NCBI RefSeq assembly: GCF_000158475.2
Contig: NZ_KI392030.1
Location: 62,001-126,000 of the forward strand
From: Oxalobacter paraformigenes
GTDB taxonomy: Bacteria; Pseudomonadota; Gammaproteobacteria; Burkholderiales; Burkholderiaceae_D
Length of the DNA stretch: 64,000 nt
Reading direction: 5' to 3'
Shown: one piece after another, positions 53,801-58,793 of the stretch
Layout: every line of letters begins with the position of its first letter
How positions within the stretch are numbered: the stretch's first letter is position 1
The notes under the pieces: model-generated
What the model saw: the letters and a program-made list of their open reading frames with translations, nothing else
The model's database searches: none
What the model was told of the DNA's origin: nothing
Program-made: the position numbers and the translations under genes

Positions 53801-54421
53801 ATGTCGGGTACGGAAAATTGTGAAGATACGGTCGGCTATACCTTGCATGGCAGCCGGTATTTGAATCTTACCAACCGGTGCGGGATTTTGCGGTGCGCTT
53901 TCTGTCCCAAATTCAATGGAGCCTGGTCGGTCAAGGAATACGATATGCGTTTGCATCACTATCCCTCTGCCGACGAGCTGGTTGAAGCGGCAGGGAACCC
54001 GGCGGACTATAAGGAGATTGTCTTTTGCGGAATGGGCGAATCGACCATGCGTCTGGAGGTCATGCTCGAAGTCGCCCGGCGTTTGCGCGAAAAGGGGGCG
54101 CGGCTCCGCTTGAATACCAACGGTCTCGGGAATCTGATCAACGGCAGGGATGTCGCTCCCGAGATTGCGGCGCTGATTCCGACTATTTCCGTTTCGCTTA
54201 ATGCCCAGGATGAGGAAACCTACAATCGCCATTGCCGGCCCAAGGATCCGCGCGCTTATGCTTCAGTTCTGGAATTTGTCGAAAGTGCCAGAAAGGCAGG
54301 CGCGGACGTCACGGTAACGGCTATTGACGGATTGCCGGGCGTGAACATCGCTGCGTGCCAGGCTGTTGCTGACAGGCTGGGCGTCAGGTTCCGGCGTCGT
54401 GTTCTGGACGATCTGGTCTGA
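53801..54421 (+). CDS. Radical SAM protein, TatD-associated type
   Basis: A 206-residue radical SAM enzyme. The cluster Cys motif reads NLTNRCGILRCAFCPKFN, that is C-X4-C-X2-C, one residue longer than the usual C-X3-C-X2-C. Downstream are FCGMGESTMRLEVMLEVA and RLNTNGLGNLINGRD, which match the family commonly found beside TatD nucleases. The substrate is not known. It lies just after the small membrane protein gene and could share its transcript. TatD is not in this window. Confidence 0.8.
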   Translation: MSGTENCEDTVGYTLHGSRYLNLTNRCGILRCAFCPKFNGAWSVKEYDMRLHHYPSADELVEAAGNPADYKEIVFCGMGESTMRLEVMLEVARRLREKGARLRLNTNGLGNLINGRDVAPEIAALIPTISVSLNAQDEETYNRHCRPKDPRAYASVLEFVESARKAGADVTVTAIDGLPGVNIAACQAVADRLGVRFRRRVLDDLV

Positions 54422-55857: not shown

Positions 55858-57921
55858 ATGAAAGCGGAAGAAAGTGTCCTTATTGATCGGGAGGCCAGCC
55901 AGCCAGCGCCTTCCGTGTTGCCTCCATTGCCGCAGCGGATTATCAAACGCGATGGGGCCGAGGTTCCGTTTGACGCCAGACGAATCACGGTTGCGCTGAC
56001 CAAGGCTGGACGGGCCACTGGTGATTTCGGCGAAGACGAAGCCCAGTTGCTGACCCAGAGAACGCTGAAAGTGTTGCGTCACCGTTTCGTCGGGGCGCCT
56101 CCGACGGTGGAACAGGTTCAGGATGTAGTCGAGCAGATGCTGGTCGATGCGAATCACACGAAGACGTTTCGTGCCTACGCTACTTACCGTGACCAGCGCC
56201 ATCGCCTGAGACAGGACAGGAGAACGCTGGTCGATGTGGCGTCTTCGGTCGAGGAGTATGTCGATCGTGCGGATTGGCGGGTACAGGCCAATGCCAATCA
56301 GGGGTATTCGCTGGGCGGCCTGATTCTGAACGTTTCCGGGAAAGTGACGGCCAATTACTGGTTGAGCCACGTTTATTCTCCCGAGATCGGGCAGGCTCAT
56401 CGGGATGCCGATTATCATATTCATGATCTGGACATGTTGTGCGGGTATTGCGCCGGCTGGTCTTTGAGACAGTTGCTTTATGAAGGCTTCAATGGCGTTC
56501 CGGGCAAACCGGAAGCCGATCCGCCCAAACATTTTTCGACGGCGCTGGGGCAAATGGTCAATTTTCTGGGTACCTTGCAAAACGAATGGGCCGGTGCGCA
56601 GGCGTTCAGTTCGTTCGATACCTATCTCGCGCCGTTTGTCCGCAATGACGGTCTGTCTTACGAAGATGTCCGGCAGCATATGCAGGAATTCATTTACAAC
56701 CTGAATGTGCCATCCCGCTGGGGAACCCAGACACCGTTTACCAACCTGACTTTCGACTGGGTTTGTCCCGAGGACTTGCGGGAACAGGTTCCTGTTATCG
56801 GCGGCAAGGAAATGCCGTTCAAATATGGCGAGTTGCAGGAAGAAATGGATATGCTGAACCGCGCCTATATCGAGGTAATGACGGCGGGCGACCGGCGCGG
56901 GAGAGTCTTCACTTTCCCGATTCCGACCTATAACATCACGTCTGATTTTCCCTGGGAATCGGAAAATGCGGAACGGTTGTTTGCCATGACGGCGAAATAC
57001 GGTTTGCCTTATTTCCAGAATTTCCTGAATTCCGATCTTTCGCCGAATATGGTGCGTTCCATGTGTTGCCGTTTGCAACTGGACTTGCGCGAGCTGTTAA
57101 AGCGCGGCAACGGCCTCTTCGGGTCGGCGGAACAGACGGGTTCCATTGGCGTCGTTACCATCAATTGCGCCCGCCTCGGCTATCTGTTCAAGGGAGATGA
57201 AAAGGGGCTGTTTGCCCGTCTGGACTATCTGGCCGACATGGCGAAAGACAGTCTCGAGATCAAGCGCAAGGTCGTCCAGCGCCTGATGGATGACGGCTTG
57301 TTCCCGTATACGCGGCGTTATCTCGGCAAGCTTCGCAATCATTTTTCAACGATCGGGGTGAACGGCATTAATGAAATGATCCGTAATTTCACTGATGACA
57401 AGGACGATATCACGACGGAGTTCGGGCACGGGTTTGCGCTTCGTGTGCTGGATCATTTGCGCGAGCGGATGAAGAATTATCAGGAAGAGACAGGCAGTCT
57501 TTACAATCTTGAGGCGACGCCTGCCGAAGGAACGACGTATCGTTTCGCGCGGGAAGACAGGAAACGTTATCCGGATATCATTCAGGCCGGTACGCCGGAG
57601 CACCCTTATTACACGAATTCGTCCCAGCTGCCGGTCGGTTATACGGATGATCCCTTCGAGGCCTTGCGTTGCCAGGATGATTTGCAGATCCGTTATACCG
57701 GGGGAACGGTATTGCATCTTTACATGCAGGAGCAGATTTCCTCTCCGGAAGCCTGCCGGAAACTGGTCAAAACGGCTCTGACGAATTTCAAGTTGCCTTA
57801 TCTGACGATAACGCCGACTTTTTCCATTTGCCCGAAGCATGGCTATCTGTCCGGTGAACACGAGTTCTGTCCGGTTTGCGATGAGGAACTGATGGCGAAA
57901 ATGGAAAAGCAGACACATTGA
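55858..57921 (+). CDS. nrdD: Anaerobic ribonucleoside-triphosphate reductase, catalytic part without the glycyl radical segment
   Basis: A 687-residue class III ribonucleotide reductase that makes dNTPs without oxygen. An ATP-cone lies at about residues 25-115 (RIIKRDGAEVPFDARRITVA). The catalytic barrel follows, with GWSLRQLLYEGF, SRWGTQTPFTNLTFDW and the cysteine motif SMCCRLQ near residue 402. The C-terminal zinc motif CPKHGYLSGEHEFCPVC is present. The chain then ends EELMAKMEKQTH; the glycyl radical sequence (RVxGY) is not in this protein but in the next gene. Expression is probably under the upstream cobalamin riboswitch. Confidence 0.93.
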   Translation: MKAEESVLIDREASQPAPSVLPPLPQRIIKRDGAEVPFDARRITVALTKAGRATGDFGEDEAQLLTQRTLKVLRHRFVGAPPTVEQVQDVVEQMLVDANHTKTFRAYATYRDQRHRLRQDRRTLVDVASSVEEYVDRADWRVQANANQGYSLGGLILNVSGKVTANYWLSHVYSPEIGQAHRDADYHIHDLDMLCGYCAGWSLRQLLYEGFNGVPGKPEADPPKHFSTALGQMVNFLGTLQNEWAGAQAFSSFDTYLAPFVRNDGLSYEDVRQHMQEFIYNLNVPSRWGTQTPFTNLTFDWVCPEDLREQVPVIGGKEMPFKYGELQEEMDMLNRAYIEVMTAGDRRGRVFTFPIPTYNITSDFPWESENAERLFAMTAKYGLPYFQNFLNSDLSPNMVRSMCCRLQLDLRELLKRGNGLFGSAEQTGSIGVVTINCARLGYLFKGDEKGLFARLDYLADMAKDSLEIKRKVVQRLMDDGLFPYTRRYLGKLRNHFSTIGVNGINEMIRNFTDDKDDITTEFGHGFALRVLDHLRERMKNYQEETGSLYNLEATPAEGTTYRFAREDRKRYPDIIQAGTPEHPYYTNSSQLPVGYTDDPFEALRCQDDLQIRYTGGTVLHLYMQEQISSPEACRKLVKTALTNFKLPYLTITPTFSICPKHGYLSGEHEFCPVCDEELMAKMEKQTH

Positions 57922-57943
57922 TTGTTTATTGAAAGGATGAAAA

Positions 57944-58126
57944 ATGGATAAATCACAATTGCCGCAGGAAAAAAGACAGCGCTGCGAGGTCTGGACCCGT
58001 GTGATGGGATATCACAGGCCGGTTTCGGAATTTAATCCCGGAAAACAGAGCGAACATCGCGATCGCGTGCATTTTGTCGAAACGGCCCTTCCCGATCCGG
58101 ATGCAGCCTGTGATTGCGGTAAATGA
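57944..58126 (+). CDS. Detached glycyl-radical segment of NrdD
   Basis: A 60-residue protein with the sequence WTRVMGYHRPVSEFNPGKQS around the predicted radical Gly22, corresponding to the C-terminal tail of ordinary NrdD. It has its own ribosome site (GAAAGGATG) and ATG 23 nt after the nrdD stop, and lies in a different frame from nrdD, so readthrough or a single base error in nrdD would not simply join them. Cys residues occur at 14 and near the end (CDCGK). It should associate with NrdD and be activated by NrdG. Confidence 0.85.
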   Translation: MDKSQLPQEKRQRCEVWTRVMGYHRPVSEFNPGKQSEHRDRVHFVETALPDPDAACDCGK

Positions 58127-58793
58127 TGTGACGGTCAATGTCGGGGGAATCACGCCGTTTACGACAATCGATTTTCCCGGCCGGTTGGCCGCCGTTGTTT
58201 TTTGCCAGGGATGTCCCTGGCGATGTCGTTATTGCCATAACCGGCATCTGCTGCCCACTGGCGAAGGCGGCCGGTATTTGTGGCAGGATGTGCTGGCCTG
58301 GCTGAAGACACGGCAAGGTTTGCTGGAAGGTGTCGTCTTCAGCGGTGGAGAACCTTTGTTGCAGAAACAGTTGCCGGAGGCGGCCGATCAGCTTCATCGG
58401 CAAGGTTTTGAGGTCGCCTTGCATACTTCGGGTGTTTATCCGGAAAGGCTTGCCAAAGTTTTGCCCTTGATCGAATGGGTAGGGCTCGACATCAAGGCGC
58501 CGTTCGACGAGTACCGAGAGATTACGGGGGGTGGAAACGGTAAGCGTGCCTGTGAATCGTTAAGGCTGATTCTGGAATCCGGAAAGCCTCATGAATTGCG
58601 GTGTACACTCGATCCCCGCTTTTTTACTGTTGACCGGGCGGAAAAAATGGCAAAACAGCTCGCGGAACTCGGCGCCAGCCATCTGGTTATTCAGGTTTGC
58701 CGCGATGAGGCGAGTCGCCGCAATCAGCTTGTCTCAAAAGAAATTGCGGCTTGCTTGGAAAATATTTTGCCTGCTGTAACGTATCGTTCCTGA
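58101..58793 (+). CDS. nrdG: Anaerobic ribonucleotide reductase activating enzyme
   Basis: A 230-residue radical SAM activase that generates the glycyl radical. The 4Fe-4S site is FCQGCPWRCRYCHN, close to the N-terminus, followed by VFSGGEPLLQ and GLDIKAPFDEY. The ATG at 58101 overlaps the small glycyl-domain gene by 26 bp, indicating coupling; a GTG a little downstream is an alternative start, and a TTG at 58074 gives a longer reading. It forms the third gene of the riboswitch-controlled unit. Confidence 0.92.
   Translation: MQPVIAVNDVTVNVGGITPFTTIDFPGRLAAVVFCQGCPWRCRYCHNRHLLPTGEGGRYLWQDVLAWLKTRQGLLEGVVFSGGEPLLQKQLPEAADQLHRQGFEVALHTSGVYPERLAKVLPLIEWVGLDIKAPFDEYREITGGGNGKRACESLRLILESGKPHELRCTLDPRFFTVDRAEKMAKQLAELGASHLVIQVCRDEASRRNQLVSKEIAACLENILPAVTYRS

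Follow-up and report, generated by a model that had tools for sequence, protein, structure and literature searches.

The window, a 64,000-nucleotide stretch of the Oxalobacter paraformigenes genome, contains a class III ribonucleotide reductase (RNR) locus in which nrdD, a small gene, and nrdG follow one another on the forward strand. nrdD (positions 55858 to 57921) encodes a 687-residue protein that matches PF03477, PF13597, and NF006126 (1143.6 bits) and comprises an ATP-cone (residues 27 to 115) and a catalytic barrel with an SMCCR finger loop. Its zinc motif CPKHGYLSGEHEFCPVC (57829 to 57879), which aligned with the cysteines of the T. maritima NrdD C terminus, is at the C-terminal end of the protein; only 13 residues separate the last cysteine of this motif from the end of NrdD, which reads CPKHGYLSGEHEFCPVCDEELMAKMEKQTH followed by a stop codon, and the RVxGY glycine is absent from this chain. 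The ATG of the small gene (57944 to 58126) is 22 nt downstream of the nrdD stop codon in relative frame +1, and AAGGA (57933 to 57937), a 5-base match when scored and the likely ribosome-binding site, is located 6 nt 5' of it. The small gene encodes 60 residues (beginning MDKSQLPQEKRQRCEVWTRVMGYHRPVSEFNPGKQSEHRDRVHFVET) that include TRVMGYHRP, and the codon of the predicted radical glycine, Gly22 in RVMGY, is at 58007 to 58009. Based on its sequence, Pfam match, conservation, and selection, we predict that the small protein is a detached glycyl-radical subunit of NrdD. nrdG (58128 to 58793) encodes a radical SAM activase of the NrdG2 type (TIGR02495, 187.4 bits; cut-off 131.15); we chose the GTG immediately 3' of the small-gene stop codon as its start, while the ORF list has an upstream TTG at 58074. 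The NRDD family model (PF13597) matched NrdD over profile positions 2 to 532 (596.1 bits) and the small ORF over positions 531 to 562 (37.3 bits; curated cut-off 26.2); thus, the model is shared out between the two ORFs almost without loss. The ORFs and this division confirm the reading in the earlier note that NrdD ends after its zinc motif with RVMGY on a separate 60-codon ORF, and that this ORF is in another frame, has its own ribosome site, and precedes nrdG. We also observed a radical-SAM-like ORF (TNRCGILRCAFC) upstream of nrdD at 53801 to 54421.

By whole-genome profile search, the 2.49-Mb genome (2 contigs, 100% complete) contains a single NrdD core and a single radical segment, and the two ORFs in the window are its only NRDD matches. 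The small ORF fragment alone was detected with an E value of 1.5e-8 in a whole-genome search, so that this match is far beyond chance. The supposition that the small protein is the sole copy was thereby borne out, and a full-length nrdD with its own RVxGY motif, which the earlier note had named as evidence against the split, was sought in this complete genome and not found. Because the genome also encodes one class I/II-type alpha chain, NrdD is not its sole RNR. With regard to class membership, the NRDD family barrel, the finger-loop cysteine (SMCCR in the window and invariant across 55 aligned rows), and a dedicated radical-SAM activase (NrdG, encoded by the next gene) are all those of a class III NrdD, while the radical RVxGY glycine is not on the same chain, the NrdD match stopping at profile position 532.

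The split was found in Beta-, Gamma-, and Alphaproteobacteria, comprising the window bacterium and about two hundred relatives. In the family sample, 37 of 145 genomes had an NRDD match; by our reading of the match table and the fetched loci, 30 of these have the split pair, 5 have a one-chain enzyme only, 1 (G108) has a core without the small gene, and 1 (G137) has a split of another subfamily. With a profile made from 27 small-protein sequences, 30 of these 145 genomes were positive for the small gene, and they are the same 30 that have a split NrdD (Fisher P = 3e-30 for co-occurrence of the split-type core and the small gene, in genomes that are related and not independent). In the order sample, 126 of 399 genomes matched, and the 29 new highest-scoring loci comprised 16 split and 12 one-chain loci as well as 1 core without a nearby small ORF. 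Of another 82 strong core matches, two were already among the family loci, and NrdD ends were taken from the remaining 80; a script detected a separate small ORF after NrdD in 75 of these 80. Among the five loci without an adjacent small ORF by script, two are at contig ends and one has masked bases although the ORF is present; at L288 and L293 of the order sample, the small ORF was absent from the stretch fetched. Similarly, no small ORF was found nearby at L050, L374, L379, and L385 or in G108. Eighteen weaker order matches (315 to 377 bits) appear to be one-chain by match range.

Among the 38 of 369 genomes that matched in the class sample, 29 new loci included 23 split and 5 one-chain loci and one (L086) that is one-chain by match range. 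The phylum sample (34 of 299 genomes with a match) gave 23 new loci, of which 19 are one-chain, all of the E. coli-like type, and 2 are split (L112 and L113); at L111, two in-frame stops precede the radical motif, and L107 has a radical domain of a second type. For the class of genome G1155, presumably Alphaproteobacteria, 34 of 289 genomes matched, and 27 loci comprised 17 split and 7 one-chain loci and 3 without a small ORF by script. The suggestion in the earlier note that the split is lineage-wide is supported by the 30 of 37 NrdD-bearing family genomes and the 75 of 80 order NrdD ends. A scan of named genomes, which yielded at least 561 relatives, extends it to Gammaproteobacteria beyond the beta- and alphaproteobacteria named there. 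Among the best 80 of these, 77 have NrdD beside the small motif (L173, L180, and L186 do not), 3 of the 77 being one-chain (L166, L178, and L188), and the taxa include Pseudomonas, Stutzerimonas, Halomonadaceae, Rhodocyclaceae, Thiobacillus, Acidithiobacillus, Chromatiaceae, and Holosporaceae. The best named relative is an Oxalobacter metagenome-assembled genome (MAG) (L114; NrdD identity 85%), and the few MAGs labelled as other phyla may be binning errors. L166 and L176 have two RVMGY motifs each, and L166 is a one-chain NrdD with a second radical-segment copy. Plasmid matches were obtained in 29 records, including Cupriavidus, Azospira, Thiothrix, Bradyrhizobium, Paracoccus, and Sulfuricurvum; in some of the eight that we inspected, the NCBI annotation has both genes under RNR names, and the enzyme is never termed split.

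The small ORFs have the features of genuine genes. In 75 order loci, they start with ATG (73) or GTG (2) and have a median length of 61 residues; a Shine-Dalgarno string of at least 4 bases was present in 74 of 75, a generous figure given that the start codon at each locus is the best-scoring one by script. The 39-residue core of the small protein is under purifying selection between the window and the same-genus relative L009 (pS 0.75, pN 0.02), and so are the phage copies among each other (pN at most 0.16 where pS is 0.19 to 1.0). R11, C14, E15, TRVMGY, RP, N31, GK, E37, R41, and F44 are identical in 27 of 27 aligned small proteins, including Gly22; because these sequences were selected by the RVMGY motif, conservation of the glycine is partly by construction.

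Based on these sequence data, NrdD and the small protein very probably form an obligate two-chain class III RNR, in which a detached radical subunit is predicted to dock on NrdD and to make it active. NrdD would supply the ATP-cone, the catalytic barrel in which the radical cysteine resides, and that half of the C-terminal domain which holds the zinc motif; the radical loop with Gly22 and the C-terminal tail would come from the 60-residue protein. NrdG would abstract hydrogen from Gly22 by radical-SAM chemistry, and the small protein would dock on NrdD for catalysis. Because the small protein is untethered, a copy cut by oxygen could be exchanged for a new one, with no need to synthesize the 687-residue chain again.

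The operon on pHG1 of Cupriavidus necator H16 is split likewise (NrdD of 676 residues, a 66-residue ORF, and nrdG), and passages of one paper, which cites Siedow 1999, report that C. necator NrdDG is essential for complete denitrification (PMC2864759). In the pHG1 NrdD, which has a calculated mass of 76,191, position 650 falls on the CPTHGY glycine, within the zinc motif (ICPTHGYLAGEHPFCPRC), while the RVMGY glycine is on the 66-residue ORF. In work by Siedow from 1999, Gly650 of the 76.2-kDa C. necator NrdD was reportedly named as the radical site, and the G650A phenotype is said to be that of the deletion. If the study did name Gly650, the published assignment of the radical glycine in C. 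necator needs rechecking. That phenotype, together with the position of Gly650 within ICPTHGYLAGEHPFCPRC, would fit a scenario in which the small protein is merely a GrcA-like backup and NrdD uses another glycine, e.g., that of CPxHGY. We consider this unlikely: the zinc-motif glycine also occurs in one-chain relatives whose RVMGY, farther along the chain, is normal, altering Gly650 may simply wreck the zinc site, and the window genome has no other radical segment.

Recoding, i.e., stop readthrough or programmed frameshifting that would generate a fused NrdD, would be compatible with the 44 of 148 loci at which NrdD and the small ORF share a frame, in many cases separated by a single stop. However, relative frames 0, 1, and 2 of NrdD and the small ORF were used 44, 55, and 49 times at these 148 loci (in which the locus of the window was entered up to three times) and 24, 26, and 25 times at 75 others, i.e., evenly (chi-square P = 0.54; pooled, 0.57). 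Because the frames are evenly spread, in-frame fusion of nrdD and the small gene, the observation that the earlier note had listed as speaking against two chains, is excluded as a rule. Moreover, all three stop codons occur between the ORFs, at some loci more than one, the spacings reach 376 nt (to the script-chosen start), and the small gene has its own start and ribosome site. On these grounds, we rejected recoding as highly improbable. A frameshift would likewise be expected to leave two neighboring ORFs that match a single Pfam family and differ in frame, in which case a frameshift, an assembly error, or a decaying gene would hide an enzyme that is really one chain or dead. We rejected this explanation, which we regard as scarcely credible, on the grounds that the split recurs across many families, in draft as well as complete genomes, at variable spacing and in all three frames, that the small gene is under strong purifying selection, and that both parts exceed the short join of one-chain relatives by extra sequence. 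It is just as implausible that the small protein is an accessory docking factor of NrdG that is dispensable for radical transfer, as the adjoining position of the two genes, which overlap in some annotated records, might suggest, since the small protein holds the only RVMGY loop of the genome, and this loop is conserved in relatives (partly by construction).

Comparison with known structures agrees with the two-chain reading. T. maritima NrdD aligned with the window NrdD over residues 105 to 610 and, weakly (E value 0.13), with the small-protein profile over residues 616 to 645; thus, the small protein begins where NrdD ends. For structure prediction, we used the relative L172 (NrdD identity 82%), in which both ORFs are in one frame, and read the stop codon as glycine, giving an artificial tether. 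The resulting model, based on 55 alignment rows, had a mean pLDDT of 74.9 and a pTM of 0.69. It aligned with T4 NrdD (1h7b; model residues 147 to 722 on chain residues 30 to 587, rmsd 2.6) and with pyruvate formate-lyase (1cm5; model residues 133 to 732 on 74 to 754), while several NrdD structures aligned with it only to about residue 648. The loop glycine is model residue 716 by our count; the mean pLDDT of the radical loop (residues 711 to 720) was about 44, and the finger loop was also weak. In the model, the loop of the small protein is positioned where covalent loops lie. Because the radical and finger loops are poorly modelled and the tether is artificial, we take the model as consistent with docking and no more.

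In trees of the NrdD core from which the C-terminal part had been removed, split and fused rows are clustered: the label required at least 5 changes in 122 rows (shuffled mean, 12.5) and 7 in 86 rows (shuffled mean, 16.6), and 2 of the 7 changes are forced by starred branches. The 86-row tree comprised a third of the old split rows, chosen rows, and 26 new loci; nine long or odd rows were omitted, two of which were returned as the outgroup, and L394 was skipped as too distant. A fused clade of six from one Burkholderiales family was placed among split rows (branch support 81 to 93, unstarred), and the one-chain enzymes L371 and L397 from the class of G1155, whose long linkers retain the N-terminal motif of the small protein, are sister to split enzymes (support 96, starred). 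The split row L385 forms a long branch near the outgroup. These data suggest repeated re-joining of the two parts, which points to a functional link between NrdD and the small protein. A single origin of the split, with all split rows held together, gave an AU P value of 0.127 in 74 rows (about half of the split rows and chosen ones, seven long or odd rows being omitted); one origin is thus neither shown nor rejected.

Detachment also occurred in a second NrdD subfamily. In G137, a genome from the same genus as the window (loci L010 and L366), a PRK07111-type NrdD ends after the cysteine motif, and RITGYLVG is encoded by a separate ORF downstream; the same holds for the NrdD of G1155 (L107). 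On viral contigs, we identified 311 relatives of the RITGY-type radical domain. Among the fetched loci of the best 80 of these (L398 to L477), 71 were without an NrdD core, 8 had a core, and 1 was without the motif by script. When 50 of the 71 virus records, none of which is listed as 90% complete, were searched whole, 49 had the radical part only (profile positions 507 to 562), and 1 (G1481) had the radical part and pieces of the NrdD core ending at position 531. Thirteen records of cultured phages carry the second type; nrdD and nrdG are annotated in two of them, and 11 have no annotation. Together, the second subfamily and the viral copies indicate that detachment is not limited to one lineage.

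A scan of IMG/VR viral contigs with the small-protein profile identified 170 relatives. At the best 80 of these (L194 to L273), no NrdD or NrdG was detected in flanks of up to 4 kb, which were often shortened by the contig end. When searched whole, 49 of 49 virus records were without an NrdD core; none of them is listed as 90% complete, and most are probably fragments. The 49 records and plasmid pALVIN01 gave one NRDD match each, within profile positions 513 to 562, with 2 of the 50 below the family cut-off. We note that the viral scans use motif patterns, so that conservation of the glycine in these hits is partly by construction, and that the hits were sorted by homology near the gene and not by proven host. 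Among cultured phages, the window small protein as a query gave one weak record; given these results and those for the second type, the lone viral copies rest on IMG/VR contigs. The neighbors of these copies include tape measure, endolysin, reverse transcriptase, and integrase genes in one set and tape measure, terminase, helicase, and polymerase genes in another, in which 3 of 10 proteins matched nothing. In L253, a phage-type reverse transcriptase (671 to 1816) shares a prophage-like region with a lone radical subunit and an integrase. Some phage copies are near-identical over the core to the small proteins of particular cells, e.g., those of a SUP05 scaffold and of genome G1454, and some (L202, L203, L208, L224, L237, and L238) have a cysteine-rich extension N-terminal to the radical domain. 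The small proteins match positions 113 to 162 of the 179 positions of the phage family phrog_4132, annotated as of "unknown function," suggesting a radical-subunit function for its C-terminal part.

Cellular genomes carry lone extra copies as well. One (L367) is on a PFGI-1/SPI-7-type conjugative island, one (L370) is in a region with a lambda-type exonuclease and an NrdJ-like chain, one (L364) adjoins a malonate decarboxylase gene, and one (L363) is beside ORFs that we judged by eye to be tail-fibre-like, one of which was tested and had no family match; L362 and L365 are further cases. On pALVIN01 of Allochromatium vinosum, a plasmid without an NrdD core, a lone radical-subunit gene (L280; 3001 to 3210) adjoins a gene with a CHAP domain. 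NrdD could also make use of copies that come from phages or islands, and such an exchange may be of benefit. We tend to favor, with moderate confidence, the idea that the radical domain is mobile and exchangeable: phages and integrative elements would plug a lone copy into the NrdD of the host, replacing oxygen-cut or limiting subunits, and this would have arisen at least twice. For the phages, the purpose would plausibly be to secure dNTPs without oxygen. On the same footing, the two cases would be the split enzymes of proteobacteria and the RITGYLVGT-type phages, and the hosts of the latter may well have an ordinary one-chain NrdD.

With the canonical class III RNRs of E. coli, phage T4, T. 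maritima, and P. copri, the enzyme described here has in common the ATP-cone and catalytic barrel, the cysteine of the finger loop, the zinc motif, the sequence of the radical loop, and NrdG; it differs in that the loop and tail reside on a protein of their own. The class II RNR of Pseudomonas aeruginosa, reported to be split, is similarly a two-chain reductase of a normally one-chain class; it belongs to another class and has another cut. GrcA/YfiD and Y06I, the latter presumably a phage T4 protein, are spare parts of pyruvate formate-lyase and, like the protein studied here, are small free-standing radical-domain proteins; the action in trans would also be shared. The 60-residue ORF has its own start and ribosome site, as expected of a GrcA/YfiD-type protein. 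In contrast to GrcA/YfiD, the small protein belongs to the NrdD family, NRDD rather than a pyruvate formate-lyase-type radical-domain family being its sole Pfam match (E values up to 1), and the window genome has no full-length NrdD for it to back up; since it is the only NrdD radical domain in that genome, we regard it as a subunit and not a backup. Thus, the likeness to GrcA drawn in the earlier note holds for the mode of working and fails for ancestry: the two-chain enzyme would work like GrcA without belonging to the GrcA family.

According to the relevant part of one paper, only GrcA/YfiD and Y06I are validated, and spare parts for other radical enzymes are possible (PMC8683613). In P. 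copri NrdD, the glycyl radical domain is described as comprising, in this order, a zinc site, the radical loop, and the tail (PMC11226230, in part); compared with that description, the cut here is within this domain, between the zinc site and the loop. For the vs.6 ORF of T4-like phages, a section of a 2006 paper reports a radical-domain match and a guess of a role in nucleotide metabolism, made from the presence of such a domain in nrdD (PMC1524935); vs.6, as described there, matches the Gly_radical Pfam family, while the window small protein matches NRDD. Split RNR genes of phages (nrdD, nrdA, and others) give one chain from two genes, with six nrdD cases, and in the sections concerned, apart from an unexplained nrdD case, are largely tied to introns, inteins, or homing endonucleases (PMC3653736). 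Compared with these, the cut here is at a domain border, it is found in cellular genomes, and no element lies between the halves, which in the window are 22 nt apart. Our literature search of open PMC papers found no description of a detached NrdD radical subunit. The findings that go beyond the earlier note are the lone radical subunits on a conjugative island and on virus contigs, the detachment in a second subfamily, and the re-fused relatives.

In the literature surveyed, class III RNRs are one chain with a C-terminal radical domain, and many bacteria seem to have a two-chain form instead. If the Siedow study did name Gly650, annotated NrdD that is produced from such bacteria in the absence of the small ORF should miss the radical glycine. 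With its small, exchangeable part, the two-chain form offers a ready system for studying how the radical is installed, how the parts dock, and how they are repaired. The detached subunits are candidates for spare parts of a radical enzyme beyond pyruvate formate-lyase, a possibility raised in part of PMC8683613, and if the radical domain is indeed mobile, the RITGYLVGT-type phage protein would be such a spare part as speculated upon there.
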